Origin: a virus
IMG/VR virus record: IMGVR_UViG_3300032401_001536
Coordinates: 1 to 42,830 of that record
Length of the DNA stretch: 42,830 nt
Strand: one strand, 5' to 3'
Under the pieces are notes generated by a model. It was not told the DNA's origin, did not search any database, and was given only the letters and a program-made list of their open reading frames with translations. Below, piece by piece: positions 1-36,786 of the stretch. The number at the start of each line of letters is the position of its first letter. Position 1 is the first letter of the stretch. The position numbers and the translations under genes are program-made.

Positions 1-707
1 GTATTTCTGGTTATAGTGCCTACTCGGGATATTCTGGGATATCTGGTTATTCAGCATATAGTGGCTATTCAGGAAGGTCTGGATATAGTGGTTATTCTGG
101 AATTGGAACATCTGGTTATTCTGGAATTGGAACATCTGGTTATTCTGGAATTGGAACATCTGGATGGTCTGGTTTTAGCTCACAGGTTTTAGGTCCTACA
201 GGCTTGGATGGAACGTCTGGGTATAGTGGCTACTCTGGATATAGTAGCGCTGTTTTAGGAAAGTCTGGTTATAGTGGCCATTCTGGTATTGGGACTTCTG
301 GATATAGCGGTTATTCTGGAGCTGGTATATCTGGATACTCTGGATATAGTTCCTACCATCAGCCTACGATAGTTTTTGGAATTCCAGGAACTTTAACAGT
401 AGGAAGTAAAATAACGGTTTCTTTTGTAGTGCCCTTTACTTGTGTAATTACTAAAGCGTATGCCTATATTAGAACGGCTCCTACTGGATCTGCTGTTATT
501 TTTGATATTCTAAAAAATGACATATCTCTTTGGAGTGTAACTCCTGGTAATAGGATCCAGATAGCTGCAGGTGGGTATTCTGGTGTACAAACTAGTTTTG
601 ACACAACTAGTTTGGTAGAAGGAGATAGGCTAGATATAAATACTGTTCAAGTTGGTACTACTATTGCTGGAGCTAATGCTACTGTGCAGTTAAAGGTGAC
701 ACGATAA
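1..707 (+). CDS. Tail fibre with Gly-X-Ser repeats and C-terminal head (5' partial)
   Basis: The reading frame is open from base 3, so the gene starts before the window. Bases 3-350 encode collagen-like Gly-X-Y triplets, mostly GYS, GIS and GYSAYS, with three tandem GIGTSGYS units. Bases about 355-704 encode a non-repetitive, beta-rich C-terminal domain of about 115 residues with no proline-rich or catalytic signature. I read it as a fibre shaft with a distal receptor-binding or capping head. The head resembles the C-terminal part of the fibre at 35891-36589 (shared pattern of Tyr-Ala followed by a Thr-x-x-x-Gly-Ala-Ile/Val-x-x-x-Ile-x-Lys strand). The next gene starts one base after its stop, so the two are probably translationally coupled. 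The fibre role is inferred from repeats and context. Confidence 0.8.
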   Translation, partial: ISGYSAYSGYSGISGYSAYSGYSGRSGYSGYSGIGTSGYSGIGTSGYSGIGTSGWSGFSSQVLGPTGLDGTSGYSGYSGYSSAVLGKSGYSGHSGIGTSGYSGYSGAGISGYSGYSSYHQPTIVFGIPGTLTVGSKITVSFVVPFTCVITKAYAYIRTAPTGSAVIFDILKNDISLWSVTPGNRIQIAAGGYSGVQTSFDTTSLVEGDRLDINTVQVGTTIAGANATVQLKVTR

Positions 708-1448
708 ATGACGACGGCTTATATTAGACCAATCGGACCAGGAGATGAAACTGGGGGTCTTCAGCAATATCCTAGTTCTGGTTTCCATTGGGATAAGGTG
801 GATGAAGTAGTGTCGGATGGTGCTGCTACATACGTCAGCTCCTTTCGTTTGGGATGGCTGCGTGATCTATATGAGCTAGGGTATGCAAGTCGAATGGGTA
901 CTATAAACTGGATAAAGGTATGGATGGTTCTTTCTACAGACAATGTTAGCTATGATGGAAAAACAGTAATTAAAACAGGTGGTACGGTGTATGAAGGGCC
1001 TGCTCATCAATGTCCTTCTGCTGGTCCTTGGTATTCTTTTTCTCAGGAGTATGTGGTAAATCCAAAAACTGGAGTTGCCTGGACCTGGGATGATATTAAT
1101 GTCTTGCAGGCAGGAGTAAGTCTAAGTGCAGGTTTACTCACATATATATACTGTACACAAGTTTATGTTGAGATAAATTCTTCGCCAGATCCCTCTGGTT
1201 ACCCAACCTGTGTGTGTGATTTGGTTGAATATAATTGGAGCTGTTCTTGTTTTTCAACATGCTATGGGCAAGGATGTACTTGTAACAATGCACTTTATGG
1301 TGTAGGTTCATGTAAAGGAGATACTTCTTGCGCTTGTTTTTTTATGTGTTACGAACAGACTTGTACGAGTTGTTATAATACCTCTTATAACGTAGCCTGT
1401 CAATGTGATATGATGAAGTATGCTCCTGGAAGCTGGTTGTTTTATTAA
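708..1448 (+). CDS. Virion surface protein with cysteine-rich C-terminal tail (putative radical-SAM substrate)
   Basis: 246 residues in two parts. Residues 1-160 look like a beta-sandwich of the kind seen in phage tail and adhesin proteins; the stretch NPKTGVAWTWDDINVLQAGV and a final CTQVYVEI strand are typical. Residues 168-233 hold 15 cysteines arranged as repeats of CxCx3CYx3CTC followed by Asn and Tyr, ending in YAPGSW. The same unit makes up the whole 62-residue protein at 36598-36786. ATG follows the upstream fibre stop directly, with AAGGTG about ten bases upstream. The next gene is a radical-SAM/SPASM enzyme, which makes this a candidate substrate. Alternatives are a metal-binding or disulfide-rich tip. 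The C-terminal function is not known to me. Confidence 0.75.
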   Translation: MTTAYIRPIGPGDETGGLQQYPSSGFHWDKVDEVVSDGAATYVSSFRLGWLRDLYELGYASRMGTINWIKVWMVLSTDNVSYDGKTVIKTGGTVYEGPAHQCPSAGPWYSFSQEYVVNPKTGVAWTWDDINVLQAGVSLSAGLLTYIYCTQVYVEINSSPDPSGYPTCVCDLVEYNWSCSCFSTCYGQGCTCNNALYGVGSCKGDTSCACFFMCYEQTCTSCYNTSYNVACQCDMMKYAPGSWLFY

Positions 1449-1481
1449 GGAGCTGAAATGATTAAGAAGGAGGATATGAAT

Positions 1482-3122
1482 ATGAGTAATTTGCCTATTA
1501 CGCATGCTTCGCTAAATCTTACGCAATCTTGTGATTTGAACTGTAGTTATTGTTTCAATCATTCTAAAACATCCAAACGGATGACTTTTGAAACTGGAAA
1601 GAAATGTATTAACTTTATTTTATCTAATGCTCAAGAGGCTAATGTTAATCAGCTTAGTGATAGGAGAAGGTATTCGGAGATAAGTTTTTGGGGTGGTGAA
1701 CCTTTGCTAGAATGGGAACTAATGAAGAATCTGGTGCTATATGCTGAGGATACTATTTATAAAGATGTTTTGGTAGGATTTGGTGGGACAACCAATGGTG
1801 TACTGCTTACAGAGGATAAACTTGGTTTTCTAAGTGAGCACAGAGCTTTTTTTATGGTTAGTTTGGATGGTACTCAAGAAACTCATGACAAGTACAGAAG
1901 GATGGGAAATGTAGGTTCTCATTCTATAATAATGAAAAATATGGAAAAGGTTTTAGAACGATGGCCGTTTTGTAGAGTGAGGATGAGCCCTTATGCGGAA
2001 GGAATACATAGATTTTGTGAAGACATTAAATATCTAGTAAGTCATGGAATTAATAATATTATGTTCAGTCCAGTTTATGAATCAGAGTGGAATGAGGATA
2101 GGTGGAACGTTTGGGAACAGCAGTGTTATGCTGTAGTAGATTTTATAGCTGAAAAGCGTAAACAAGGAGTTATGGTAGAGGTTGAGCATTTCAAGTCTTA
2201 CGCTCAACCTAGTTGGCAAAAGTATCCCTGTGGAGCAGGAAGGCATTACTGTTTAACAGGGGATACTAGTGTTTCTTCACTTAATGGAACTGAGATTTTA
2301 CTAAAGGATTTAGTGGATAAAGAGAACTTTTGGGTTTATTCCTGTAAAGAGGATGGTGAAATAGTTCCTGGTAAAGTTAATAGAGTTTGGAAAACTGGAA
2401 CTAAGTCAGTTATTAAAGTTATGTTAGACAATGGTGAATTTTTTAAGTGTACAGAAGATCATTTACTAATGGTAAGGGAGGGGACTTACAAAGAAGCAAA
2501 GGATTGTCTGGATGAAAGTTTAATGCCTTTAAGAAAAGAATGGTTTAGAACTGATAGAAGTGTACCCTGGAAAGAATTTTATCAGCAACAGAAAGCTACT
2601 AATCATAAAGTAATTAAACTAGAATATGCTGGTTATGAAGATGTTTATGATATGGAAATCGAGAAGTATCACAATTTTGCTTTAACTGCTGGAGTGTTTG
2701 TTCATAACTGCGGTTTTGACACAGAGGGAGAGATTTTTATTTGCCACCGATTTTCCAAATTTGATGATGATAGGCCCTGGCAGCAAAAAGAGGGTTGTAT
2801 TGGTCATGTGGATCATGGAATTACTAAACCAGAAGTTAGGGATAAGCTTCTAAATTTTAATCCAGTAGGGTGTGATAAAGGTATATGCTCATCTACTCCG
2901 TGTCGAGGTGGCTGCCCAGCTGTAAATGCAGATTTGACAGGTGATCTTAGCACTCCGTCCAAGTTGATTTGTAGGTATGTAGCTTTACAAACTAGAGTGT
3001 CGGAGTATTATAAAAAGAAAGTGGTAGAGAAGACCACGACTCCGCAGCAAGTTATGGAAACTATTAAAAATCTAGAAACAACGGTGCTGCAGTTGGAGGG
3101 TCGTCTAAAAATAATGTCTTAA
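1482..3122 (+). CDS. Radical-SAM/SPASM enzyme interrupted by an intein
   Basis: The protein begins ITHASLNLTQSCDLNCSYCF, with the CxxxCxxC [4Fe-4S]/SAM motif at residues 17-24, followed by the SAM-binding FWGGEP motif. This resembles anaerobic sulfatase-maturase and peptide-maturase enzymes. After the intein (residues 257-409) the C-terminus has SPASM-type cysteines: Cx12Gx4C across the spliced junction, then GCDKGICSSTPCRGGC and a late Cys in LICRYV, all able to bind auxiliary Fe-S clusters. A short coiled-coil-like tail ends it. I chose ATG 1482 because AAGGAGG (1467-1473) lies 8 bases upstream; ATG 1458 with AAGGAG is a possible longer start adding 8 residues. It directly follows the Cys-rich gene. 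Family-level function is oxidative or thioether modification of peptides; the actual substrate is inferred, and no sulfatase-type CxPxR target was seen nearby. Confidence 0.88.
   Translation: MSNLPITHASLNLTQSCDLNCSYCFNHSKTSKRMTFETGKKCINFILSNAQEANVNQLSDRRRYSEISFWGGEPLLEWELMKNLVLYAEDTIYKDVLVGFGGTTNGVLLTEDKLGFLSEHRAFFMVSLDGTQETHDKYRRMGNVGSHSIIMKNMEKVLERWPFCRVRMSPYAEGIHRFCEDIKYLVSHGINNIMFSPVYESEWNEDRWNVWEQQCYAVVDFIAEKRKQGVMVEVEHFKSYAQPSWQKYPCGAGRHYCLTGDTSVSSLNGTEILLKDLVDKENFWVYSCKEDGEIVPGKVNRVWKTGTKSVIKVMLDNGEFFKCTEDHLLMVREGTYKEAKDCLDESLMPLRKEWFRTDRSVPWKEFYQQQKATNHKVIKLEYAGYEDVYDMEIEKYHNFALTAGVFVHNCGFDTEGEIFICHRFSKFDDDRPWQQKEGCIGHVDHGITKPEVRDKLLNFNPVGCDKGICSSTPCRGGCPAVNADLTGDLSTPSKLICRYVALQTRVSEYYKKKVVEKTTTPQQVMETIKNLETTVLQLEGRLKIMS
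2250..2708 (+). mobile_element. Mini-intein (153 aa) inside the radical-SAM protein
   Basis: The intein starts at Cys (CLTGDTSVSSLNG, block A), has a block B TEDH motif followed by LLMV, and ends with a block F/G sequence finishing VFVHN before an extein Cys. All splicing residues are present: Cys1, TxxH, the penultimate His, terminal Asn and a Cys at +1. At 153 residues there is no room for a homing endonuclease. Splicing joins GAGRHY to CGFDTEG and restores the first SPASM cysteine cluster. The +1 Cys is itself a likely Fe-S ligand, so the enzyme should be inactive until splicing. Confidence 0.92.
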
Positions 3123-3134
3123 AGGGAGAACAAG

Positions 3135-3623
3135 ATGGCTAATATTAAACAGTTTCTTTTACCCTACTTCGTGCAGGGGGCAACAGGGTTGTACTGTAGA
3201 ATTCTACAGATGTCTACTGGCTATTTCTTGGACGACTCAGATGGAATTTTTAGGGTGTCTGCAGTCGATCCCAAAGTACTTATACTAGAATACGCTCCAG
3301 GTACTTCGTTATACTATTTTACTGAGAACCGGACAGTGTGGGCTGATGGAAAATATAGTATTTTTGGGTATGATTCGAGTGACAATCTTTTTGCTGGTGG
3401 AGATCTTTTCATACTGAATGATGCAGAAGTGTCTGAGTCCGATCTGTTGAGCTATATGAGTTTTATTAAGAAAATGGAAGAGGGGGATTGGGTACTTGAT
3501 GATGAGGAAAATACGTGGACTGTTATGGATTCAGATGGGTCTACACCAATTGCTACATTTAACTGTTTTGACAAAGATGGTAACCCAAGTGTTGTGAATA
3601 TCTTTAGGCGAACAAGAGTATAG
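3135..3623 (+). CDS. Hypothetical virion-associated protein
   Basis: 162 residues, beginning MANIKQFLLPYFVQGATGLYCRI, with GGAGAAC upstream. The arrangement Tyr-x-x-x-Gly-x-Thr-Gly-Leu-Tyr-Cys-x-Ile, then an aromatic-rich stretch around residues 50-70 (EYAPGTSLYYFTENRTVWADGKYSIFGYD), resembles small structural proteins found in phage fibre clusters. There is no enzymatic motif, signal peptide or membrane segment. The acidic C-terminal part ends NIFRRTRV. It lies between the radical-SAM gene and a run of small genes leading to the giant fibre, so a fibre-attachment or assembly role is plausible but unproven. Confidence 0.7.
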   Translation: MANIKQFLLPYFVQGATGLYCRILQMSTGYFLDDSDGIFRVSAVDPKVLILEYAPGTSLYYFTENRTVWADGKYSIFGYDSSDNLFAGGDLFILNDAEVSESDLLSYMSFIKKMEEGDWVLDDEENTWTVMDSDGSTPIATFNCFDKDGNPSVVNIFRRTRV

Positions 3624-4545: not shown

Positions 4546-7500
4546 ATGCCAATCGACGATGTAATCGTTGTTGAGATAGAAAAACAGCAAGAAATTACAG
4601 TTTTAGTAGCTGAAAAAGAACCAGGGATTATTATAACCATTCAGGAGGGGGGTACGACAGCTCCTGGAATACCTGGTGTTTCAGGCTATTCTGGTCCTTC
4701 AGGCTATTCTGGTTTTTATGGGGAATCAGGAACTTCGGGTTATTCTGGATATTCTGGTAAATCTGGTTACTCTGGGCGGGATGGCGTTATTGGTGTAGAT
4801 GGGGTTTCTGGAGTCTCTGGTTATTCTGGAGTCTCAGGTTATTCTGGAGTCTCTGGTTATTCTGGAGTCTCAGGTTATTCTGGTTACTCCGGTGAAGGGT
4901 CTTCTGGTTATTCAGCTTATAGTGGCTACTCAGGGTATTCTGGAATCTCAGGATACTCAGCTTATTCAGGGGGTAGTGGGTATTCAGGTTACAGTGCGGA
5001 GAGTCCAGGTCCTTCTGGTTATTCTGGTTATTCAGGGATCTCAGGTTATAGTGGATATTCTGGTATCTCTGGCTATAGTGCTTATTCAGGTATCTCAGGT
5101 TATTCTGGTTATTCAGGTATAGGAACATCTGGCTATTCAGGTTACTCAAGCATATCTGGTTATTCTGGTTATTCTGGTTACTCTGGTATCTCAGGTTATA
5201 GTGGATATTCTAGTGTATCAGGTTACTCAGGCTACTCAGGAATTTCTGGATATTCTGGTATCTCAGGATATAGTGGATATAGTGGATATTCTGGAATCTC
5301 TGGTTACTCCGGTATCTCAGGTTATTCTGGTTATTCGGGTTACTCTGGAGTAAGTGGATATTCAGCCTATTCTGGTATCTCTGGTTACTCAGGTTATTCC
5401 AGTATCTCAGGTTATAGTGGTTACTCCAGTACTTCTGGTAGTTCCGGGTATAGCGGTTACTCTAGTATTTCTGGATATTCTGGTTACTCTGGTATTTCAG
5501 GGTACTCAGGAGTTTCTGGTTATAGCGGTTATAGTGGGATCTCAGGTTATTCTGGTATCTCAGGATATAGCGGTTATAGTGGGTATTCTGGAAAGTCTGG
5601 GTATAGTGGATATTCTAGTATCTCAGGTTACTCAGGAATTTCTGGTTATTCTGGATACTCAAGTCCTGGAACTTCTGGTTATTCTGGATACTCAAGTCCT
5701 GGAACTTCTGGTTATTCTGGTTATAGTGGTTACTCCAGTACTTCTGGCTATTCGGGTTACTCTGGAGTAAGTGGATATTCAGCCTATTCTGGTATCTCTG
5801 GATATTCGGGTATCTCAGGTTATAGTGGATACTCAGGCATAAGTGGATATTCAGGATATAGTAGTTCCTCTGGATATTCTGGATACTCCAGTCCAGGTAG
5901 TTCTGGATATTCAGGTTACTCAGCTCAACCAGGAGGTTCTTCTGGTTATACAGGTTACTCAGGTTACTCCAGTCCTGGAGAATCTGGATATTCAGGTTAT
6001 TCAGCTCAACCAGGAGGTTCTTCTGGATATTCTGGCTACTCTGGTATTTCTGGTTATTCTGGATATTCTGCTTACTCAGGTATCTCAGGTTATAGTGGTT
6101 ATTCTAGTATTTCAGGTTACAGTGGCTATTCTGGAACATCTGGGTATAGTGGCTATTCAGGCGTAGGGACATCTGGTTATTCTGGTTACTCTAGTATCTC
6201 AGGTTACAGTGGTTACTCTGGTTACTCTGGGATTTCTGGATATAGTGGGTATTCAGGCGTAGGAACTTCTGGATATTCTGGCTACTCTGGGATTTCTGGT
6301 TATTCAGGGTATTCTGCCTACTCAGGAATCTCAGGATATTCTGGTTACTCTAGTATCTCAGGTTACAGTGGCTACTCTAGTATCTCAGGTTACTCAGGTT
6401 ATTCTGGTATTTCTGGTTATTCTAGTATTTCAGGTTACTCAGGCTATTCTAGTATCTCAGGTTACTCTGGAATCTCAGGTTACTCAGGCTACTCTGGTTA
6501 CTCTGGGATTTCTGGTTACTCAGGTTACTCAGGTTACTCTGGGAGATCTGGATATTCTGGCTACTCAGGAATCTCAGGTTATTCTGGAATCTCAGGTTAT
6601 AGTGGCTACTCAGGCTATTCAGGTATTAGTGGATATTCAGCCTATTCTGGTATCTCTGGTTACTCAGGTTATTCCAGTATCTCAGGTTATAGTGGTTATT
6701 CTAGTATTTCAGGTTATTCAGGGTACTCAGGTTTAAGTGGTTACTCAGGTTACTCCAGTCCAGGTAGTTCTGGATATTCAGGTTACTCAGCTCAACCAGG
6801 AGGTTCTTCTGGTTATACAGGTTACTCAGGTTACTCCAGTCCTGGAGAATCTGGATATTCAGGTTATTCAGCTCAACCAGGAGGTTCTTCTGGATATTCT
6901 GGCTACTCTGGTATTTCTGGTTATTCTAGTATCTCAGGTTACTCAGGCTATTCTAGTATCTCAGGTTACTCTGGAATCTCAGGTTACTCAGGCTATTCTA
7001 GTATCTCAGGTTACTCTGGGTATTCTAGTATTTCTGGCTATTCAGGCATCTCAGGTTATAGTGGATATTCTGGAATTTCTGGATATTCTGGTATTTCAGG
7101 ATATAGTGGATATTCTAGTATCTCAGGTTACTCAGGCTATTCTAGTATCTCAGGTTACTCAGGAATCTCAGGTTATTCTGGAATCTCAGGTTATAGTGGC
7201 TACTCTGGTATCTCGGGCTACTCTGGTTATTCCAGTCCAGGAACTTCTGGCTATTCTGGCTATTCTGGAATCTCAGGTTACTCAGGTTATTCTGGTATTT
7301 CTGGTTATTCTAGTATCTCAGGTTATAGTGGCTATTCAAGTATCTCAGGTTACTCTGGAATCTCAGGTTACTCAGGCTATTCTAGTATCTCAGGTTACTC
7401 AGGAATCTCAGGTTACTCTGGATACTCTGGAATCTCAGGTTACTCAGGTTATTCTGGTATTTCTGGTTATTCTAGTATCTCAGGTTATAGTGGCTATTCA

Positions 7501-8757
7501 AGTATCTCAGGTTATTCAGGAATCTCAGGTTATAGTGGCTACTCTAGTATCTCAGGTTACTCCGGTTACTCCGGTTACTCCGGCTACTCCGGCTACTCAG
7601 GAATCTCAGGTTATTCTGGAATCTCAGGTTATAGTGGCTACTCAGGAATCTCAGGCTACTCTGGTTATTCCAGTCCAGGAACTTCTGGATATTCTGGTTA
7701 TTCTAGTCCAGGTTCTTCAGGGTATTCAGGTTATTCTGGTGAGGGTACTTCTGGTTATTCTGGGATTTCTGGTTATTCTGGTTACTCTAGTATCTCAGGT
7801 TACTCTGGCTATTCTAGTATCTCAGGTTATAGTGGATATTCTGGTTACTCAAGCGTAAGTGGGTATAGTGGTTATTCTAGTCCAGGTTCTTCAGGGTATT
7901 CAGGTTATTCTGGTGAGGGTACTTCTGGCTATTCGGGATATTCTAGCCCAGGAACTTCTGGATATTCTGGTTATTCTAGTCCAGGTTCTTCAGGGTATTC
8001 TGGTTATTCAAGTGAGGGAACTTCTGGATATTCAGGTTACTCTAGTGAGGGTAGTTCAGGATATAGTGGATACTCAAGTACTGGATCATCTGGATATTCT
8101 GGATATTCTAGTACTTCCGGATACTCTGGATACTCTGGATATTCTGGTACTGGAGTTGCTAACTATGTAGAGGACATAACTCCAGCTGATAATCCTTGGG
8201 TTATTACTCATGGTCGAGGTGTAAAGGAAATACTTGTTCAAGTTTATGACGATAATGGCTACCAGATTATTCCAGTGTCTATAGTTTTGGATACTGTTAA
8301 TCAATGTACTATAAACTTTTCGGAAGATACGGCGGGAACGGTTGTTGTATCTAGTAGTGGTGGTGCTCAGGGAGTTTCTGGTTTTTCTGGGAGTGTGACT
8401 GGTACTAAGCTAGAGGTTGGGGTTGCACAGGGCACTCATAATCTTGTTGTTAAAGATGTTGTGAGGCGTTCGGGTGGAGCGTTTGTAAAAGCTCAGGCAG
8501 ATTCAGCGGAGCATGCTGAGGTAGTTGGGATAGTAAGCGCCAAAGCGGATAATGATAATTTTACGCTTCTGATGTCTGGATATATAACTACTTTGTCAGG
8601 GTTGACAGACGGAGTTGTTTACTATTTGGATCCAAGTACAGCAGGAGCTATTACTGCTACGGAACCTACGACACCTGGGCAGGTTTCCAAGCCTCTACTG
8701 ATAGCAGATTCTACCACGTCTGGATTCTTTATAAACTTCAGGGGGTTGGTTAAGTAG
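4546..8757 (+). CDS. Giant tail fibre (1403 aa) with Gly-X-Ser triplet shaft
   Basis: Residues 1-38 (MPIDDVIVVEIEKQQEITVL onward) form a short attachment domain. Residues about 39-1200 are an almost uninterrupted Gly-X-Y shaft in which Y is nearly always Ser and X is most often Tyr, Ile or Val. Unlike bacterial collagen-like proteins it has very little proline, and the Gly position is often Ser or Ala (GYSSIS, GYSAYS). Residues about 1200-1403 are globular: first ITHGRGVKEILVQVYDDNGY, then a lipocalin-like or tail-tip repeat with YYLDPSTAGAITATEP and SKPLLIADSTTSGFFINFRG. I infer a trimeric fibre. Shaft DNA contains exact long repeats, so length may vary between isolates. ATG has AGGAG upstream. 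Confidence 0.88.
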   Translation: MPIDDVIVVEIEKQQEITVLVAEKEPGIIITIQEGGTTAPGIPGVSGYSGPSGYSGFYGESGTSGYSGYSGKSGYSGRDGVIGVDGVSGVSGYSGVSGYSGVSGYSGVSGYSGYSGEGSSGYSAYSGYSGYSGISGYSAYSGGSGYSGYSAESPGPSGYSGYSGISGYSGYSGISGYSAYSGISGYSGYSGIGTSGYSGYSSISGYSGYSGYSGISGYSGYSSVSGYSGYSGISGYSGISGYSGYSGYSGISGYSGISGYSGYSGYSGVSGYSAYSGISGYSGYSSISGYSGYSSTSGSSGYSGYSSISGYSGYSGISGYSGVSGYSGYSGISGYSGISGYSGYSGYSGKSGYSGYSSISGYSGISGYSGYSSPGTSGYSGYSSPGTSGYSGYSGYSSTSGYSGYSGVSGYSAYSGISGYSGISGYSGYSGISGYSGYSSSSGYSGYSSPGSSGYSGYSAQPGGSSGYTGYSGYSSPGESGYSGYSAQPGGSSGYSGYSGISGYSGYSAYSGISGYSGYSSISGYSGYSGTSGYSGYSGVGTSGYSGYSSISGYSGYSGYSGISGYSGYSGVGTSGYSGYSGISGYSGYSAYSGISGYSGYSSISGYSGYSSISGYSGYSGISGYSSISGYSGYSSISGYSGISGYSGYSGYSGISGYSGYSGYSGRSGYSGYSGISGYSGISGYSGYSGYSGISGYSAYSGISGYSGYSSISGYSGYSSISGYSGYSGLSGYSGYSSPGSSGYSGYSAQPGGSSGYTGYSGYSSPGESGYSGYSAQPGGSSGYSGYSGISGYSSISGYSGYSSISGYSGISGYSGYSSISGYSGYSSISGYSGISGYSGYSGISGYSGISGYSGYSSISGYSGYSSISGYSGISGYSGISGYSGYSGISGYSGYSSPGTSGYSGYSGISGYSGYSGISGYSSISGYSGYSSISGYSGISGYSGYSSISGYSGISGYSGYSGISGYSGYSGISGYSSISGYSGYSSISGYSGISGYSGYSSISGYSGYSGYSGYSGYSGISGYSGISGYSGYSGISGYSGYSSPGTSGYSGYSSPGSSGYSGYSGEGTSGYSGISGYSGYSSISGYSGYSSISGYSGYSGYSSVSGYSGYSSPGSSGYSGYSGEGTSGYSGYSSPGTSGYSGYSSPGSSGYSGYSSEGTSGYSGYSSEGSSGYSGYSSTGSSGYSGYSSTSGYSGYSGYSGTGVANYVEDITPADNPWVITHGRGVKEILVQVYDDNGYQIIPVSIVLDTVNQCTINFSEDTAGTVVVSSSGGAQGVSGFSGSVTGTKLEVGVAQGTHNLVVKDVVRRSGGAFVKAQADSAEHAEVVGIVSAKADNDNFTLLMSGYITTLSGLTDGVVYYLDPSTAGAITATEPTTPGQVSKPLLIADSTTSGFFINFRGLVK
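5884..6060 (+). repeat. 177-bp exact direct repeat, copy 1
   Basis: By direct reading this block is identical to 6751-6927. It encodes the unusual variant segment with SSPGSSGYSGYSAQPGGSSG and SSPGESGYSGYSAQPGG. Exact identity over 177 bp, in a tract where neighbouring units differ at synonymous sites, points to a recent segmental duplication inside the shaft. Confidence 0.9.
6751..6927 (+). repeat. 177-bp exact direct repeat, copy 2
   Basis: Second copy of the block at 5884-6060, 867 bp downstream and in the same frame. Recombination between the copies would remove or add 289 in-frame codons. Confidence 0.9.
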
Positions 8758-8820
8758 GAGATAGAATTTGGTTGATTATAGTTCCCTTCAAAAGGGAGTG
8801 TCAGGATATAGTGGCTATTC
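8745..8820 (+). repeat. 76-bp duplicated gene-start leader, copy 1
   Basis: Spans the last codons of the giant fibre, the AGGAG site, the TTG start and the first codons of the S74 fibre. It matches 11333-11408 with four mismatches. Confidence 0.85.
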
Positions 8821-10012
8821 AGCTGATTCTGGATACAGCGGCTATTCACAGGCTAGTGGTTACTCTGGTTATTCTGGAATTTCAGGTTATTCTGGTTACT
8901 CCGGTAAAAGTGGGTATTCAGCATACTCAGGTTACTCAAATATTAGTGGTTATTCTGGTTACTCAGGTGTAAGTGGTTATTCTGGGTATTCTGGTATTTC
9001 AGGTTACAGTGGGTATTCAGGAATCTCTGGTTACAGTGGGTATTCAGGGCCATCTGGTTATAGTGGCTATTCAGGTTATTCTGGGTCATCTGGTTATAGT
9101 GGCTATTCTGGAGTCTCTGGTTATTCTGGAGTCTCTGGTTATTCTGGAGTCTCTGGTTATTCTGGTATCTCAGGTTATAGTGGCTATTCTGGGCCATCTG
9201 GCTATAGTGGTTATTCTGGTGTAGGAACATCTGGTTATAGTGGTATCTCTGGTTATAGTGGTATCTCTGGTTATTCTGGTATCTCTGGATATTCAGCTTA
9301 TAGTGGTTTTTCAGCGGCAGCTTCTGGTTATAGTGGTTATTCTGGAATATCTGGATATTCTGGTGATAGTGGTTACTCTAGTATCTCAGGTTACAGTGGG
9401 TACTCTGGCATCTCAGGTTATTCTGGATACTCTGGATATTCAGGTATAAGTGGTTATTCTGGGTCATCTGGATACTCGGGTTATAGTGGCTATTCTGGGA
9501 GTTCTGGTTATAGTGGCTATTCCGGAACTTCAGGTTATTCTGGAATATCTGGTTATAGTGGGTATTCAGGAACTTCTGGATATTCAGGTATAACTGGTTA
9601 TTCTGGAGTCTCTGGCAGGAGTGGTTTTTCTAGGTCTTCTGATCTTCGTTTGAAAAAGGATATTAGAAATTTTAATGAAGGAATGAATGTAGTTGGGAAA
9701 ATTAATCCTGTTTGGTTCAAATGGAATGGGCTTTGTAATACCACCAATGACGATGTTCAGCAATTGGGTGTTATTGCTCAGGAGATGGAGTCTATTGCTC
9801 CTTATACTGTTTTTAAAGGAAGTGGTAAGCTTTTTGAAGAGGCTGAAGAGGCAGGTGAAATAAGTTTTATTCATCCATCTTCGATTGTTTTTCTTCTGGT
9901 GAATGCAGTTAAGGAGATAAATAACAGAGCTAGTAAGCTTAAAGAAGCTATAGAAAGGTATAAATCTGATAAGAATCTTGTTTCTTTTATAAAGGATTTG
10001 GAGTCATTGTAG
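8768..10012 (+). CDS. Tail fibre with C-terminal S74 chaperone domain (1 of 3)
   Basis: 414 residues from a TTG start, placed 7 bases after AGGAG (8756-8760) that overlaps the upstream stop. A short head, MVDYSSLQKG, is followed by about 280 residues of Gly-Tyr-Ser triplets. Residues about 291-414 are a Peptidase_S74 domain: SDLRLKKDIRNF, PVWFKWNG, LGVIAQEMESIAPYTV and a final helical segment. In known S74 proteins a Ser and a Lys five residues later drive self-cleavage after trimerisation; SDLRLK keeps that spacing. The mature fibre would therefore lose its last ~120 residues. The domain is 93 bp identical to that of the next gene. Receptor specificity cannot be read. Confidence 0.88.
   Translation: MVDYSSLQKGVSGYSGYSADSGYSGYSQASGYSGYSGISGYSGYSGKSGYSAYSGYSNISGYSGYSGVSGYSGYSGISGYSGYSGISGYSGYSGPSGYSGYSGYSGSSGYSGYSGVSGYSGVSGYSGVSGYSGISGYSGYSGPSGYSGYSGVGTSGYSGISGYSGISGYSGISGYSAYSGFSAAASGYSGYSGISGYSGDSGYSSISGYSGYSGISGYSGYSGYSGISGYSGSSGYSGYSGYSGSSGYSGYSGTSGYSGISGYSGYSGTSGYSGITGYSGVSGRSGFSRSSDLRLKKDIRNFNEGMNVVGKINPVWFKWNGLCNTTNDDVQQLGVIAQEMESIAPYTVFKGSGKLFEEAEEAGEISFIHPSSIVFLLVNAVKEINNRASKLKEAIERYKSDKNLVSFIKDLESL
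9638..9730 (+). repeat. 93-bp exact repeat in S74 domain, copy 1
   Basis: Identical to 10958-11050. A second block of about 50 bp (from GGTGTTATTGCTCAGG near 9767) is also identical between the two genes, while the bases between differ. This mosaic favours gene conversion or strong selection on parts of the chaperone. Confidence 0.88.
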
Positions 10013-11323
10013 ATGTTTAATCTGAGTCTAAAATTGCAAGCCCTTCTGGCGCAAAAGGCTAGGAAATACAGGAAGCCTATTATTGATCCTCCTACTACTA
10101 TACCTCAAGGAGGAATGTCGGGTTTTAGTGGTTACTCCTCTGGTATTTCTGGGTATAGTGGTTTTGGTATCTCAGGTTACTCTGGGTATTCTAGTATCTC
10201 AGGTTATTCTGGGTACTCTGGAATTTCTGGTTATAGTGGATATACTGGCTATGGAATTTCCGGTTATAGTGGCTATTCAGGACATTCAGGTTATTCAGGC
10301 TATTCTGGGAGTTCTGGATATAGTGGCTATTCTGGGATTTCTGCGTATAGTGGTTTTTCAGCGGCAGCTTCTGGTTATAGTGGAGCAAGTGGATATTCAG
10401 GTATAAGTGGTTATTCTGGGTCATCTGGTTATAGTGGGTATTCAGGTTATTCTGGAATTTCTGGCTATTCTGGCTACTCAGGAATCTCTGGTTATAGTAG
10501 CTATTCTGGAATATCTGGTTATAGTGGGTATTCAGGAACTTCTGGATATTCAGGTATAAGTGGTTATTCTGGGTCATCTGGTTATAGCGGCTATTCAGGA
10601 AAGTCTGGATACTCTGGTTATTCTGGGATTTCTGGCTATTCAAGTTATAGTGGTTTTTCTGAATCTTCTGGTTATAGCGGTAACTCTGGATACTCTGGTA
10701 TTTCAGGATATTCAGGCTATTCTGGAATCTCAGGTTATAGCGGCTATTCTGGTTACTCCGGTAAAAGTGGGTATTCAGGTGCAGCTTCTGGTTATAGTGG
10801 AGCAAGTGGATATTCAGGTATAAGTGGTTATTCTGGGTCATCTGGTTATAGCGGTTATTCTGGCGGGTCAGGCTACTCAGGAATAAGTGGGTATTCTGGG
10901 TATTCAGGTATAAGCGGATATTCTGGGATATCTGGTTATAGTGGGTATTCTAAAGCCTCTGATCTTCGTTTGAAAAAGGATATTAGAAATTTTAATGAAG
11001 GAATGAATGTAGTTGGGAAAATTAATCCTGTTTGGTTCAAATGGAATGGGTTATGGAATACTGCTAACGATGATGCTCAGCAGGTAGGTGTTATTGCTCA
11101 GGAGATGGAGTCTATTGCTCCTTATACTGTTTTTAAAGGGAGGGGCAAACTTTTCAGAGAGGCAGAAGAGGAAGGTGAAATAAGTTTTGTTGATTCTTCT
11201 TCAATAGTTTTTCTTCTGGTGAATGCCGTAAAAGAAATAAATATGACAGTTAGTAAATTTAAAGAAGCTATAGAAAGATATAACTCTGATAAGAATTTTG
11301 TCTCTCTTATCGAGGATTTGTAA
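10013..11323 (+). CDS. Tail fibre with C-terminal S74 chaperone domain (2 of 3)
   Basis: 436 residues; ATG directly abuts the previous TAG. Its N-terminus differs from the two flanking fibres: MFNLSLKLQALLAQKARKYRKP is helical and basic, followed by a Pro-rich link. Residues about 35-312 are Gly-X-Ser triplets with two AAASGYSGASGYSG interruptions also seen in the sister fibres. Residues about 315-436 form an S74 domain with SDLRLKKDIRNFNEGMNVVG and VGVIAQEMESIAPYTVF. The Ser/Lys pair is intact. The different head suggests a different partner or position on the baseplate, while the near-identical chaperone indicates recent duplication or gene conversion. Confidence 0.87.
   Translation: MFNLSLKLQALLAQKARKYRKPIIDPPTTIPQGGMSGFSGYSSGISGYSGFGISGYSGYSSISGYSGYSGISGYSGYTGYGISGYSGYSGHSGYSGYSGSSGYSGYSGISAYSGFSAAASGYSGASGYSGISGYSGSSGYSGYSGYSGISGYSGYSGISGYSSYSGISGYSGYSGTSGYSGISGYSGSSGYSGYSGKSGYSGYSGISGYSSYSGFSESSGYSGNSGYSGISGYSGYSGISGYSGYSGYSGKSGYSGAASGYSGASGYSGISGYSGSSGYSGYSGGSGYSGISGYSGYSGISGYSGISGYSGYSKASDLRLKKDIRNFNEGMNVVGKINPVWFKWNGLWNTANDDAQQVGVIAQEMESIAPYTVFKGRGKLFREAEEEGEISFVDSSSIVFLLVNAVKEINMTVSKFKEAIERYNSDKNFVSLIEDL
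10958..11050 (+). repeat. 93-bp exact repeat in S74 domain, copy 2
   Basis: Partner of 9638-9730, in the second S74 fibre. The third fibre (11356-12579) has a clearly diverged S74 domain and does not share the block. Confidence 0.88.
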
Positions 11324-11332
11324 AATTGTAAT

Positions 11333-11408
11333 GTTGGTTAACTAGGAGATAGAATTTGGTTGATTATAGTTCTCTTCAACAGGGAGTGTCTGGATATAGT
11401 GGCTATTC
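11333..11408 (+). repeat. 76-bp duplicated gene-start leader, copy 2
   Basis: Matches 8745-8820 with four mismatches. Here the first part is non-coding but still reads TTGGTTAACTAG, a fossil of the upstream gene end (Leu-Val-Lys-stop) present in copy 1. The duplication therefore carried the 3' end of a giant-fibre-like gene with it. Confidence 0.82.
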
Positions 11409-12579
11409 TTCTACTTCTGGTTACTCTGGGTACTCAGGAAAAAGTGGCTACTCTGGGTATTCTAGTCCTTCAGGCTACTCTGGTTACTCAGGTAAAAGTG
11501 GGTATTCTGCATATTCAGGATACTCAGGTGTTAGTGGATATAGTGGCTATTCTGGGAGTTCTGGATATAGCGGTTACTCTGGGTACTCAGGAAAAAGTGG
11601 CTACTCTGGGAGTTCTGGTTATAGTGGCTATTCTGGGAGTTCTGGTTACTCAGGATATTCTGGCTATTCTGGGATTTCTGGTTATAGTGGCTATTCTGCT
11701 GCAGTATCTGGTTATAGTGGGGTAAGTGGTTACTCTGGGATATCTGGTTATAGTGGGTATTCAGGTTATTCTGGAATTTCTGGCTATTCTGGCTACTCAG
11801 GATATACTGGAGTAGGAGATTCAGGGTACTCAGGCTATTCAGGTTATTCCAGTGAAAGTGGTTACTCAGGCTATTCAGGTATTAGTGGTTACTCAGCCTA
11901 TTCTGGGGCATCCGGTTACTCAGGATATACTGGAATAGGAATTTCCGGGTATTCAGGAAAAAGTGGTTATTCTGGGATTTCTGGTTATTCGGGTTATTCA
12001 GGTTACTCAGCTTATAGTGGCTACTCTGGTATTTCAGGATATAGTGGCTATTCTGGAATCTCAGGTTACTCTGGAATCTCTGGATATTCAGGTTATTCTG
12101 GATACTCTGGTGCAGCTTCTGGTTATAGTGGAGCAAGTGGATATTCAGGGTACTCAGGAAAAAGTGGTTATTCTGGGTCATCTGGTTATAGTGGTTATTC
12201 TGGTAGGTCTGGTTATAGTGGTTTTCTAAGTGATCTTAGGTTAAAACGAGAACTTTGGAAGTTTGAGGAGGGGTTAAGTACACTTAAGGGTATTACACCA
12301 TATTATTTCAAATGGTTACATCTAAGGGAGAATCAGGATGATGTTCAGCAGGTAGGTGTTATTGGGCAGGAGATAGAGTCAGTATTTCCGATAGCAGTTC
12401 GTAAGGCTAGAGCTAAGATAATACCAGAGGGGGAAGATACAGATATTTATTGGGTGGATGAAACTTCGATTGCTTTGCTATTAGTGAACTCTGTCAAAGA
12501 GCTTAACTCGGATTTGAATTATTGTATTCATAGTCTAATCGATATTTTGAAAGAGGAACAGAAGCATAGATCTTACTAG
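11356..12579 (+). CDS. Tail fibre with C-terminal S74 chaperone domain (3 of 3)
   Basis: 407 residues from a TTG start preceded by AGGAG, in the same leader as the first S74 fibre. The head MVDYSSLQQG is almost identical to that of the first copy, so the two probably attach at the same kind of site. The Gly-X-Ser shaft covers residues about 10-288 and includes GYTGVGDSGYSG and AASGYSGASG variants. The S74 domain (from about 291) is diverged: SDLRLKRELWKFEEGLSTLK, PYYFKWLH, VGVIGQEIESVFPIAV, YWVDETSIALLLVNSVKEL. Ser and Lys of SDLRLK are kept. The differing chaperone may keep its trimers separate from the sister fibres. Confidence 0.87.
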   Translation: MVDYSSLQQGVSGYSGYSSTSGYSGYSGKSGYSGYSSPSGYSGYSGKSGYSAYSGYSGVSGYSGYSGSSGYSGYSGYSGKSGYSGSSGYSGYSGSSGYSGYSGYSGISGYSGYSAAVSGYSGVSGYSGISGYSGYSGYSGISGYSGYSGYTGVGDSGYSGYSGYSSESGYSGYSGISGYSAYSGASGYSGYTGIGISGYSGKSGYSGISGYSGYSGYSAYSGYSGISGYSGYSGISGYSGISGYSGYSGYSGAASGYSGASGYSGYSGKSGYSGSSGYSGYSGRSGYSGFLSDLRLKRELWKFEEGLSTLKGITPYYFKWLHLRENQDDVQQVGVIGQEIESVFPIAVRKARAKIIPEGEDTDIYWVDETSIALLLVNSVKELNSDLNYCIHSLIDILKEEQKHRSY

Positions 12580-12851: not shown

Positions 12852-14504
12852 ATGAGAACTCTTCGTATTCCGTTTCCAGATATTTCTAGGTATCAAAAAA
12901 CTAGACTTTCTGAAGCTTTTGCTTTTGGTGCTTCCCAAGATAAACTTTCTGATATAAAGGCTGGATCGTCTTCTCTTTATTTTAGAAATACTTTGGGGTT
13001 TGCTCCCGATGACTTTTTTATCATAGAGGCTTTTGAATCTAATGATGCGGAGGTTTGTCAGATACAGAACATAGATCCACAAAGTCATATAGTCGAATTA
13101 GCTGATTCTACCTATCAACCTCATTTGGTTGGATCTGTGATTATGAGAATGCCTTATAACCAGGTTAAAGTTTTTAAGGGTTCTACGGGTGTTATAACTA
13201 GTCATACAGAGATTACTGGTAGTCCGTTTGTTTTGAGGCCTGATACATCATATACGTATATCTATGATGAGCTAGGAACATCTTCAGATTACTACTCTTA
13301 TCAGTATTGGATAGATTATACTGGATATGTAGGACATTCTGGATATAGTGGGTTTTCTGGGTATAGTGGGGTTTCACAGCAGGTACTTTATTCTGAGACC
13401 GATTATGATTCAGTTCTTACAGTGGCAAACCTGAAGGATTGGTTTATGTTTGGATTGGATTTGACGGATGATGATGGTTATCCATTTCCTACTCCTATGT
13501 TTGAGTTTGCTATTAGAGTGGCAATAGATAGTTTAGAAAAGACTTTGAATATTAAAATAAAACCAACTACCATTTATCAGGAGTTTCAAGATTTTTATGC
13601 TTCGGATTACAGGGACTTCGCTTTTATCCAGCTTAATCATTATCCTCTTATAAGTGTGGAAAATGTATATATTTGGTATCCTACTGCTCAAGCTCCAATA
13701 CTGTTTCCACATGAATGGTACCAGATTAGAAAAGAAAGGGGGCAGGTAAATTTAATTCCTACTTCTGGATCGTTGAGTAATATTTTAATGGGAAGAGGTG
13801 GGGACTATTTGACGTTTGTGTGGCGGGGGTATGATTTTATGCCTAACCTTTGGAGGATAGACTATACCGCTGGGTTAGGTAGTCGGGATGCTAATAATAA
13901 CATAGTGACTGAGGTGCCTAGTGATTTGGTTGGTGTGATTGGGAAAATGGCGTGCTTTTACCCGCTTGCGATTGCTGGGGACCTCGTAGGTGGCATCGCG
14001 GTGGCTAGTAAGTCTATAGGAATTGATGGGTTATCTCAGTCGTTAAATACTACATCTTGTGTTCATCCAGATGTTCTAGTTTTAGTTGATGGTGAGTATA
14101 AGAAAATTTCTGAGGTAGGGGTTGCTACTAAGATTTGGGATGGAGATTTGATTTCTTTTTACGTAAAAGGAAAGAATATAAGCCCAACTACTATTACTCC
14201 AGATCACTTGGTTTTAACAGGCTCAGGTTGGAAGGCGGCGGAGAATCTTTTTCTTTCTGACAGTATAGATCAAGGTGGAAGTTTTGAAAGGATAGAGAGA
14301 TTAGAGAAAGTATTTTTTAAGGGTCAATTATATGATATGGTTTTGCAACCAGATGGAAAATATGTTACTTTCCAAGGGGTTATCCACAATTCACCGGAGA
14401 ACGCAGGTTACAGTGCAAGGCTCCGGCAATATGAAAAGGAGCTCAAGCTTGAGATAAAGCGTCTCCAATCTTATTTCTGGGGCTTGAAGATGGTTTCACT
14501 CTAA
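12852..14504 (+). CDS. Head-tail connector (gp6-like) with a 111-aa intein and a GYS insert
   Basis: 550 residues as translated, 439 after predicted splicing. Residues 1-155 are a unique N-terminal domain. Residues 158-175 are a short GYVGHSGYSGFSGYSGVS insert, the same motif as the fibres. From about 185 to 400 the pattern resembles HK97 gp6-type connector proteins: EFAIRVAIDSLEKTLNIKI, FAFIQLNHYPLISVENVYIW, WRIDYTAGLG, VPSDLVGVIGKMA. The C-terminal part after the intein is a helix (SARLRQYEKELKLEIKRLQS) ending WGLKMVSL. The connector should sit on the portal ring and gate DNA. AGGAGG precedes ATG. The role is inferred from fold-like pattern and from the neck genes that follow. Confidence 0.75.
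   Translation: MRTLRIPFPDISRYQKTRLSEAFAFGASQDKLSDIKAGSSSLYFRNTLGFAPDDFFIIEAFESNDAEVCQIQNIDPQSHIVELADSTYQPHLVGSVIMRMPYNQVKVFKGSTGVITSHTEITGSPFVLRPDTSYTYIYDELGTSSDYYSYQYWIDYTGYVGHSGYSGFSGYSGVSQQVLYSETDYDSVLTVANLKDWFMFGLDLTDDDGYPFPTPMFEFAIRVAIDSLEKTLNIKIKPTTIYQEFQDFYASDYRDFAFIQLNHYPLISVENVYIWYPTAQAPILFPHEWYQIRKERGQVNLIPTSGSLSNILMGRGGDYLTFVWRGYDFMPNLWRIDYTAGLGSRDANNNIVTEVPSDLVGVIGKMACFYPLAIAGDLVGGIAVASKSIGIDGLSQSLNTTSCVHPDVLVLVDGEYKKISEVGVATKIWDGDLISFYVKGKNISPTTITPDHLVLTGSGWKAAENLFLSDSIDQGGSFERIERLEKVFFKGQLYDMVLQPDGKYVTFQGVIHNSPENAGYSARLRQYEKELKLEIKRLQSYFWGLKMVSL
14058..14390 (+). mobile_element. Very small mini-intein (111 aa) in the connector protein
   Basis: Starts at Cys (CVHPDVLVLVDGEYKKISEV, block A), has TPDHLVL (block B), a late YDMVLQPDGKYVTFQG block F, and ends VIHN before a Ser at +1. 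All residues for splicing are there: Cys1, the block-B His, penultimate His, terminal Asn and Ser+1. At 111 residues it is shorter than most mini-inteins I know of. The joined extein would read SLNTTS-SPENAGYS, in a conserved-looking C-terminal region. Confidence 0.9.
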
Positions 14505-15763: not shown

Positions 15764-16528
15764 ATGACACAAGCGCGAATGAAAGTAGAGTTTTCTATGA
15801 AGGGCCAGTTTCCTAATGTTAGGCAGGCATGGGGTGATATACTTGTTTTAACTGCTACTGCTGCTAGGCAGGAATGGGTTAAGGCAGCAAGGCAGAAACT
15901 CCATACTACTGCTAAGTTATACACGGATGCTATTTCAGATCCTGTAGTTAAAAGGAGTAGTGCAGTTATAACTCTTAGGGGTTGGTTACCTAACGCTCTT
16001 GAATGTGGACATCCACCCTGGGATATGAAACCTTTTCTCCTCAAGGGTAGAAAAGCGAAGAGGGATAAAAGGGGAAGGCCCTATACTACAGTACCTTTTG
16101 GTTTGAAAGCTCCTGGTGGGGGAGACCGAGGACCTAGTCCACCAGTAATGCCAAGTTCCATTTATAAGAGGGCTTCTCAGTTGCAGTATGGTCAAAGTAT
16201 GAACCTACCTAAGAAGTATGAAGGCTATGGTATAAGAACAAGGTTGACCCCAGATATAAAAAAGTGGGATTCCTACACTTGGAAGACTTCTCCATTTCAG
16301 GGTATTACAAAGATTCAGAGGTTTTCTGGTGATCCCATGTCTAGATATGTAGCAACTGGTGGAAAGCGGGCAGGTATGAGATCTGGGTACCAAACTTATA
16401 GGAGAGTTTCAAAAGCTAGTGATCCAAATTCCTGGCTACACCCAGGCTTTCGCAGTATTCGTGCTCTAGATCAGGCAGTCGTAAACCTGGAGAAGATATT
16501 TCCGGAGATAGTGAGTAGAATTTTATGA
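15764..16528 (+). CDS. Tail-completion (HK97 gp10-like) protein
   Basis: 254 residues, basic, starting 8 bases after the previous stop. The N-terminal half is helical (WGDILVLTATAARQEWVKAA), followed by YTDAISDPVVKRSSAVITL and LECGHPPWDMKPFLLKGRKA, a pattern typical of minor tail/neck proteins that adapt the tail to the connector. The end, SWLHPGFRSIRALDQAVVNL, is like that of gp10-family proteins ('W-HPG----'). It overlaps the downstream homing endonuclease start by ATGA. Confidence 0.6.
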   Translation: MTQARMKVEFSMKGQFPNVRQAWGDILVLTATAARQEWVKAARQKLHTTAKLYTDAISDPVVKRSSAVITLRGWLPNALECGHPPWDMKPFLLKGRKAKRDKRGRPYTTVPFGLKAPGGGDRGPSPPVMPSSIYKRASQLQYGQSMNLPKKYEGYGIRTRLTPDIKKWDSYTWKTSPFQGITKIQRFSGDPMSRYVATGGKRAGMRSGYQTYRRVSKASDPNSWLHPGFRSIRALDQAVVNLEKIFPEIVSRIL

Positions 16529-35890: not shown

Positions 35891-36589
35891 ATGAGTTCTA
35901 CGTACACTACAAACTTGGGGCTTCGCAAGCCAGCGCATCAAGATCCTGATACATATGAAACTTGGGATCAGGTGTTAAATAATAATTTTGATACAATTGA
36001 TGCCGTATTCGGGGCAAGATCATATACGGAAAAAAACTATATCTTAAATTCTGATTCTCATTCTCAGAGTCTAGATAAATTAGATATAGCTTTGAAGGAT
36101 GTATCTGGGGTAGCAGGAATCTCAGGTTTCTCAGGTTATTCTGGTTCTTTAGGTTTAGATGGTGCTATAGGAGTGAGTGGGTTTTCTGGTTATTCAGGAG
36201 CGATTGGTGCTGGAAGTGTTAGGGAGGTACATTTTGCAGTTCCTAATCTTTTAGCGGTAGGAGATCAGGCTCCTTGGATACACATGGCTTTTGCTGGGGC
36301 AATTACTTCTGTTTATGCACTTGTTAAAACACGTAGTACTAGTGGAGCTATTGTGATTAGTATTCAGAAGTGTACAGATATGACTCAGGCTACTTTAACT
36401 TGGGGTTCGATTTTTTCTACTGATATAACAATAGATGTTAACAAAAGATCCACTATAAATTCTGCTGTGCCTGCGGTTTTTAATGGTAGTCAAGTGTTTA
36501 ATACTAATGATGTTTTTAGGATTGTTGTTAGTTCTAAAGGTACTAATTCAGCGGATCTAGTTGTTAGTGCTAAGATAGTTCCTTCTTAG
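35891..36589 (+). CDS. Short fibre with GYS motif and beta-sandwich head
   Basis: 232 residues after AAAAAGGAG. Start MSSTYTTNLGLRKPAHQDPD, then ETWDQVLNNNFDTIDAVFGA, the common fibre N-terminus ('T--LGL-KP---D---W---LN-NFD-ID'). Residues 78-110 have two GFSGYSG-type turns. The last 120 residues (REVHFAVPNLLAVGDQAPWI onward) form a head related in pattern to that of the fibre at 1-707. A cysteine-rich gene follows 8 bases later, as it does there. Confidence 0.8.
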   Translation: MSSTYTTNLGLRKPAHQDPDTYETWDQVLNNNFDTIDAVFGARSYTEKNYILNSDSHSQSLDKLDIALKDVSGVAGISGFSGYSGSLGLDGAIGVSGFSGYSGAIGAGSVREVHFAVPNLLAVGDQAPWIHMAFAGAITSVYALVKTRSTSGAIVISIQKCTDMTQATLTWGSIFSTDITIDVNKRSTINSAVPAVFNGSQVFNTNDVFRIVVSSKGTNSADLVVSAKIVPS

Positions 36590-36597
36590 GAGGTGGT

Positions 36598-36786
36598 ATG
36601 GTTTGGTCCTGTCAATGTAATATGGTTTGTTATATAGAAGGGTGTACCTGCAACAATAGTTGTTATGGTTTTGGAGGTTGTAAAGGTGATGCGGGTTGTT
36701 ATAGTTGCTATCTGGCATGCTATCTGGAGACCTGTACCTGCAACGAGGCTAGATATAATGCGGATAGTTGGGTGGTGGTAGTCTGA
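36598..36786 (+). CDS. Cysteine-rich small protein (62 aa), paralogue of the Cys tail at 708-1448
   Basis: 12 cysteines in 62 residues, preceded by AGGAGG. Two units: SCQCNMVCYIEGCTCNNSCY and CYSCYLACYLETCTCNEARY. They align with the tail of the first Cys-rich protein: WSCxC, CYxxGCTCNN, YGxGxCKGD and a terminal YN-SW. No leader peptide or globular part, so it is not a classical precursor peptide with a leader. Stop and next start overlap (TGATG). I propose it is a substrate or partner of the radical-SAM enzyme, or a metal/disulfide-rich virion component. No known family recognised. Confidence 0.72.
   Translation: MVWSCQCNMVCYIEGCTCNNSCYGFGGCKGDAGCYSCYLACYLETCTCNEARYNADSWVVVV

Follow-up and report, generated by a model that had tools for sequence, protein, structure and literature searches.

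Conserved pairing of radical SAM/SPASM enzymes, some of them intein-bearing, with cysteine-repeat proteins suggests chemical stapling of phage tails

The gene order at positions 708 to 3,122 of a viral sequence raises the question of whether a phage modifies its own tail proteins with a radical SAM enzyme encoded beside them. The whole stretch of DNA that we analyzed, hereafter the window, is 42,830 bases long (positions 1 to 42,830 of the IMG/VR virus record IMGVR_UViG_3300032401_001536) and comes from a virus that infects bacteria or archaea; genes for tail sheath and baseplate are present in it. An initial annotation, made from the sequence alone, had described a gene combining a beta-sandwich with a 15-cysteine tail, followed directly by a CxxxCxxC/SPASM enzyme within a fibre cluster, and had inferred that the phage modifies its own virion tip after translation, perhaps giving thioether-stapled adhesins. 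The features that bear on this question are the following.

3..707, + strand: collagen-like (GYSGYSG) fibre gene, 3' end only; it begins outside the window and abuts the Cys-tail gene from upstream
708..1448, + strand: Cys-tail protein of 246 aa, proposed substrate 1; probable beta-sandwich (aa about 1-160) and Cys-repeat tail (nt 1209-1445)
1458..3122, + strand: radical SAM/SPASM enzyme gene; precursor of 554 aa, predicted spliced enzyme of 401 aa
1530..1553, + strand: CX3CX2C radical SAM cluster motif, CDLNCSYC
2250..2708, + strand: mini-intein of 153 aa without homing endonuclease, inserted in the SPASM loop between CGAGRHY and C
3135..3623, + strand: small gene following that of the enzyme, conserved in the sister phage at 49% identity; no function assigned
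4546..8757, + strand: very large collagen-like (GYSGYSG) fibre gene, clustered with the enzyme gene and with a homologue in the sister phage
35891..36589, + strand: fibre gene with a short GYSG stretch and a C-terminal domain, immediately upstream of the second Cys gene
36598..36786, + strand: second Cys-repeat protein, 62 aa with 12 Cys, proposed substrate 2; preceded by AGGAGG

The positions of the two central open reading frames (708-1448, 246 aa, and 1458-3122, 554 aa) held on re-examination, as did the placement of the enzyme, which has a Pfam Radical_SAM match and a SPASM cysteine set, directly follows the Cys-tail gene and has collagen-like fibre genes nearby. The product of 3-707 gives weak matches to Pfam Collagen and to PHROG collagen-like minor tail proteins. 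Very long GYSGYSG collagen-like fibre proteins are encoded in tandem in the window (3-707, 4546-8757 and 8768-12579); the DLRLKKDI... domain ending the fibre protein(s) of 8768-12579 resembles an intramolecular chaperone.

The 15-cysteine tail was also confirmed: the 708-1448 protein contains 17 cysteines in all, 15 of them within its last 81 residues, an enrichment with a binomial p of about 1e-13 against a background of 1.26% Cys (the mean of the other window genes). The first Cys motif of the tail lies at nt 1209, its units include CSCFSTCYGQGCTC and it terminates in CQCDMMKYAPGSWLFY. Its C-terminal end, CxCxxxKYAPxxW, is common to the stand-alone Cys proteins of three other records (L020, L021 and L239), and we therefore regard the tail as a member of a Cys-repeat family. 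No NCBIfam model matched the protein, and TIGR04114 (the CXXX-repeat target) was not met. The beta-sandwich held only in part, with moderate support from 38% identity to a fibre-like protein of L001, which is without a Cys tail, a weak PHROG match (phrog_6368) and a low-confidence AF2 model in which this part is predicted to be jelly-roll-like; the same model gave no confident fold for the Cys tail (pLDDT below 30). The second Cys-repeat gene, 36598-36786, had been missed by the initial annotation. Its product includes CQCNMVCYIEGCTCNNSCY...CKGDAGC... and has in common with the 708-1448 tail a CKGDxxC spacer, and both genes directly follow a fibre gene. A PDB search with this 62-aa protein returned chance EGF-like matches only.

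The product of 1458-3122 matches Pfam Radical_SAM with E=6e-14 and carries the motifs CDLNCSYC (nt 1530) and GGEP, the CX3CX2C cysteines being invariant in alignments A1, A2 and A5 and across 58 aligned enzymes. Once the intein is removed CX12GX4C appears and the SPASM criterion CX9-15GX4C...CX2CX5CX3C...C is met, the set in spliced-protein numbering being C258-x12-G-x4-C276...C-x4-C-x4-C-x3-C...C. Several relatives have the canonical second set CX2CX5CX3C; since the window enzyme has C-x4-C-x4-C-x3-C and then C, its SPASM spacing is slightly off canon. The best solved relative of the clade profile A2 is CteB (5wgg_A, E=5.6e-60, nearly full length), and the best NCBIfam family for the window enzyme is PapB (NF047865), with 177.6 bits when the intein is left in place and a cut-off of 340 that is not reached. 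The CXXX-repeat maturase model TIGR04115 gives 98.1 bits (cut-off 350, not reached), and formylglycine and cyclophane maturase models match more weakly. Because no curated family cut-off is attained, we do not assign a reaction type. The enzyme begins 24 residues before CX3CX2C and consequently has no N-terminal RRE peptide-binding domain. In the wider phage set, each of the 58 enzymes is matched by the models for PapB, SCIFF and CXXX-repeat maturases, and in the tree the window enzyme falls within a 12-row set of phage loci and one MAG contig with a local support of 100.

The initial annotation had also overlooked a 153-aa intein in the SPASM motif of the enzyme (aa 265-417, nt 2250-2708; Pfam Intein_splicing E=4.4e-17). 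It meets the criteria of a class 1 intein, with an N-terminal Cys (CLTGDT...), a TEDH block B, an end in VHN followed by C and a clean empty site, which is found precisely in a sister phage (record G022, locus L285) whose enzyme is about 60% identical. Splicing itself is inferred; as the reading frame contains the intein, the working enzyme would be the 401-aa spliced protein. Eight loci with inteins at five sites were identified among these phage enzymes: in the SPASM loop 7 residues past the first Cys (site 1, the window), before SPASM Cys1 (site 2, L072), before SPASM Cys2 (site 3, L246), before Cys2 of CX3CX2C (site 4, L053, L056 and L069) and before Cys3 of CX3CX2C (site 5, L096 and L067). 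An identical text search, which sees only HN-ending inteins, found none in 84 cellular radical SAM ORFs. Inteins commonly occupy conserved active sites, so selfish invasion remains the default explanation; that they act as a redox-gated switch of these enzymes is a possibility for which there are no test data. Of note, the window holds two further inteins, one of 111 aa (14058-14390, beginning with C and ending in VIHN before S) within the tail-module ORF 12852-14504, the exact empty site of which (NTTS/SPENAG) occurs in the sister phage L285, and one of 259 aa (38249-39025) with C2H2-type zinc fingers inside a UvsW/XPB-like helicase gene. Free-standing homing-endonuclease-like genes are present as well, listed as 16525-17571 (DUF7487 plus a DUF559/MTES-type nuclease) and 33713-34597 (HNH protein).

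The co-occurrence of Cys tail and enzyme that the initial annotation had proposed as a check was positive in both search directions. Scanning viral contigs with the single enzyme sequence found no relatives and an alignment-based scan was needed; this led to 80 loci, four of them with enzymes about 50% identical to that of the window. Defining a Cys-repeat ORF as one with at least 14 Cys per 60 aa on the strand of the enzyme, we found a qualifying ORF at 61 of the 80 phage enzyme loci. Among random viral loci none of 31 had one (Fisher p=1e-14), and among cellular enzyme loci 8 of 80 did (Fisher p=3e-18). The random viral loci were picked by a random 15-mer because a baseplate gene used as control query found zero relatives. 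These control loci were fewer and on average shorter (284 kb in total versus 1,139 kb), and the phage set includes a few near-duplicates (for example L050/L051, L067/L089, L083/L084 and L093/L094). The Cys ORF lay within 4 kb of the enzyme in 57 of 74 phage loci, with a median gap of 550 bases. Human-gut loci labelled 'Bacteriophage sp.' (L003-L006 and L008-L012) were left out of the phage evidence because most resemble bacterial SCIFF maturases, several of them beside a short SCIFF-like peptide.

In the reverse direction, a fixed repeat DNA pattern hit 54 loci, many of which were discarded as antisense or off-frame readings (for example L224, L227, L232 and L247). The pattern alone brought up eight new viral records, and a whole-record search with the enzyme profile identified a radical SAM gene in every one of them; in seven it is a close enzyme (E<1e-69), and in the remaining record (L239), which is 37.7 kb long, the only such gene is a distant one. 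The record with a homologue of the N-terminal domain of 708-1448 and no Cys tail (L001) has no radical SAM gene. A wide occurrence of the enzyme without the Cys tail would have refuted the initial proposal; this is not the case in the clade of the window, where, of the 15 records that hold a close enzyme, we counted Cys-repeat genes in 14 (the window, L020, L021, L023, L024, L025, L131, L229, L230, L245, L246, L250, L269 and L271). The exception is L022, a 15.9-kb fragment with the enzyme and no repeats, and in L024 the repeats lie some 22 kb away from the enzyme. Large cellular Cys-repeat proteins are also encoded near related radical SAM enzymes, in a Phycisphaerales sequence (L132 4136-6121) and in Clostridium tepidiprofundi (L159 10193-12982), one of them with a twin-arginine-like leader; the pair is thus not confined to phages.

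In the close clade of the window the repeat unit reads C-[ST]-C-[ND]-x-[TS]-C-Y-G-x-x-(x) and is usually 11 or 12 residues long. Position 4, a candidate acceptor, is Asn in 46 and Asp in 11 of 63 units, and Tyr8 is retained in 48 of the 63, including units that lack Cys7. Such repeats fill ORFs of 136 aa (L020), 111 aa (L021, which also has them in a 621-aa fibre-like protein) and 287 aa (L025), and a 737-aa fibre-like ORF in L023 contains some 30 units like CSCNATCYGYTA. Other relatives have CETGCEVSC, CTGTCTGSC or CDCNYACTC, and when the wider phage set is included, the repeat classes (CxCNxxCY, CTGTCTGSC, CETGCEVSC, CDCNYxCTC) have nothing but cysteine in common. AF2 predicted a repeating strand pattern for the L023 repeats with moderate confidence (pLDDT about 55-76), and Foldseek with the L023 fibre model gave no meaningful match. 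Neither the AF2 model of the window Cys tail nor that of the L023 fibre was good enough to name a fold. A Cys-repeat protein with a C-terminal Hint domain (L041 4402-5517) was observed near a phage radical SAM gene.

The repeats are found inside recognizable tail proteins of relatives. In L271 a central tail fibre J protein (phrog_31, E=5e-39; gpJ family) encoded next to the enzyme carries them as an insertion, and in the sister phage G022, which has about a dozen genes in common with the window, they lie inside two homologues of the baseplate-like window protein 32387-33703. The repeats thus shift from one tail protein to another, and the enzyme remains. That the Cys-repeat protein is a virion component is inferred from these embedded repeats, without proteomics. 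A repeat-like segment such as CVCYNACY also ends the enzymes of several relatives (L021 second copy, L023, L024, L025 and G022) and is absent from that of the window; we infer that it could possibly be a self-substrate or a docking mimic. The enzymes with this substrate-like C-terminal motif are L021 9285-10541, L023 7974-9251, L024 7980-9467, L025 3066-4439 and L285 429-1790, and in L026 7851-9137 the motif is at the N-terminus instead. A nucleotidyltransferase-like gene, recognized by eye, and further radical SAM genes recur beside the enzyme or Cys genes in close relatives (L021 10545-11348, L023 9235-10062 and L211 597-1466). L030 and L043, considered as split enzymes, each turned out to be two adjacent radical SAM genes.

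We then compared the pair with known systems. CteB (PDB 5wgg/5why), a thioether-forming SCIFF maturase, has in common with the window enzyme CX3CX2C and a SPASM domain with two auxiliary clusters. In contrast to the window enzyme, which is without RRE, phage-encoded, intein-split and accompanied by Cys repeats on tail-type proteins, CteB carries an N-terminal RRE (PMC6231123) and acts on a short Cys-peptide. CteB and PapB both act on Cys, forming thioethers (PMC6231123, PMC9413430), and PapB, a ranthipeptide maturase, is reported to join Cys to Asp/Glu across 0-6 residues and to make several thioethers on one substrate while tolerating varied spacing (PMC9413430). The window enzyme scores far under the PapB cut-off, however, and the acceptors in PapA are Asp/Glu whereas the candidates in the repeats of the window clade are mostly Asn and Tyr. 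The CXXX-repeat system TIGR04115/TIGR04114 likewise sets a radical SAM enzyme beside a Cys-repeat protein; TIGR04115 matches wider phage cousins (300.6 bits for L013; best E=1.3e-189 in the set) and TIGR04114 weakly matches the partner protein of the L013 cousin. The window repeat is CxC[ND]xxCY, not CXXX, and the model library describes peptide maturation rather than tail proteins. As in ranthipeptide and sactipeptide systems, a Cys-containing candidate substrate is encoded beside the enzyme and the pairing is conserved both ways, the thioether link being inferred here. In two cultured jumbo phages, Erwinia phage phiEaH2 (gp083/gp084) and Salmonella phage SPAsTU, a virion structural protein gene is closely followed by genes for two radical SAM enzymes and two Cys-repeat proteins, although the enzymes are distant (about 25% identical to the L037 query) and the repeats are CxxxC. 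Unannotated or partly annotated Cys-repeat proteins lie beside the two radical SAM genes at L282 5096-5895 (phiEaH2) and L283 5094-5902 (SPAsTU). Cousin pairs also occur in the human-gut phage record MT835573 and in phage Phass-1. A radical SAM module has been described in phages and prophages for the Thermus phages Cumys/phiMa, but there the accompanying genes encode a DUF483 protein and a second, unknown protein, neither of them reported as a Cys-repeat tail protein (PMC11437467).

Because many diverse phages keep the pairing of enzyme and repeats, we consider it likely (probability about 0.72) that these phages staple parts of their own tails, cross-linking the Cys-repeat segments of tail proteins, probably as thioethers. 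The two genes, the intein with its empty site, the conserved pairing and the repeats inside tail proteins of relatives are shown; splicing, substrate identity, thioether chemistry, virion presence and a role in stability or host binding are inferred only. In this model the enzyme would be made as a precursor and its intein would have to splice out, reuniting the SPASM halves; once mature, the enzyme would modify Cys-repeat stretches in two or more proteins associated with tail fibres (708-1448 and 36598-36786). If the chemistry resembles that of CteB and PapB, a SAM-derived radical would take a hydrogen from a residue near a Cys, the sulfur of which would close an intramolecular thioether ring, about one within each unit, with the near-invariant Asn/Asp4 and Tyr8 as candidate acceptors. 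The virion would thereby gain a stiff, stapled rod or tip of repeats that resists reduction. The proposal of thioether-stapled adhesins is thus supported as an interpretation, its modification, thioether, virion location and adhesin role all remaining inferred. Against it stand the absence of biochemistry, of an RRE and of any curated cut-off reached, the excess of Asn over Asp among acceptor candidates, unlike PapB substrates, the lack of a confident AF2 fold for the Cys tail and the exceptions L239 and L022.

A first alternative is that the enzyme modifies the repeats without a Cys thioether, through Tyr- or Asn-centred C-C or cyclophane links, conversion of Cys to formylglycine or epimerisation, the cysteines serving otherwise. 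The retention of Tyr8 even where Cys7 is lost and the weaker matches to formylglycine and cyclophane maturases speak for it; however, CteB and PapB, which match best, both make thioethers, Cys is the only feature common to the repeat classes and the CxPxR sulfatase motif was not found in the window proteins, which makes this explanation unlikely. Somewhat less probable still, in our view, is that the repeats are disulfide-bonded or metal-binding without the enzyme, which would act on a host protein or small peptide and share a tail module of an anaerobe phage with them by chance. The 12-residue Cys1-Cys7 spacing recalls disulfide-braced beta-solenoids, AF2 predicts a strand repeat in L023 and no enzyme assay data demonstrate modification. 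Yet enzyme and repeats are paired whichever way the search is run and whatever the repeat type, the enzymes themselves bear repeat-like segments and qualifying Cys ORFs are absent from the random viral loci. Least plausible is a phage-borne RiPP cluster with an excreted ranthipeptide-like product, which the maturase-type enzyme family and some small stand-alone partners (L020, L021 and window 36598-36786) would suit, whereas neither a protease nor an exporter gene was seen adjoining the pair in the window and in relatives the repeats form part of gpJ-like, baseplate and 700-aa fibre proteins.

Stapling of the phage's own tail proteins thus remains our preferred reading. A bolder version, towards which we lean by a narrow margin, is that this is a widespread phage strategy in which radical SAM enzymes staple long Cys-repeat tail domains into reduction-proof rods or tips, repeated intein colonisation of the Fe-S motifs making activation dependent on splicing. 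Cross-linking by radical SAM enzymes is documented for small peptides and a handful of bacterial proteins. The enzyme kind is not new; what appears to be new is that phages seem to apply it to their tail proteins, how widely it is spread and the pattern of inteins. Consistent with the initial annotation, which knew of no described example, we found no description of the enzyme/Cys-repeat pairing or of inteins in SPASM maturases in the open-access literature searched, most subscription papers and all preprints being outside its scope. The recurring inteins at Fe-S cysteines are a separate, checkable oddity. The main reading can be tested already, since a cousin pair is available in cultured jumbo phages of Erwinia and Salmonella. 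If true, it would give a function to phage radical SAM genes now classed as 'other' (phrog_1802), provide natural substrates with tens of units for building stapled protein rods and add a new layer of chemistry to the virion.
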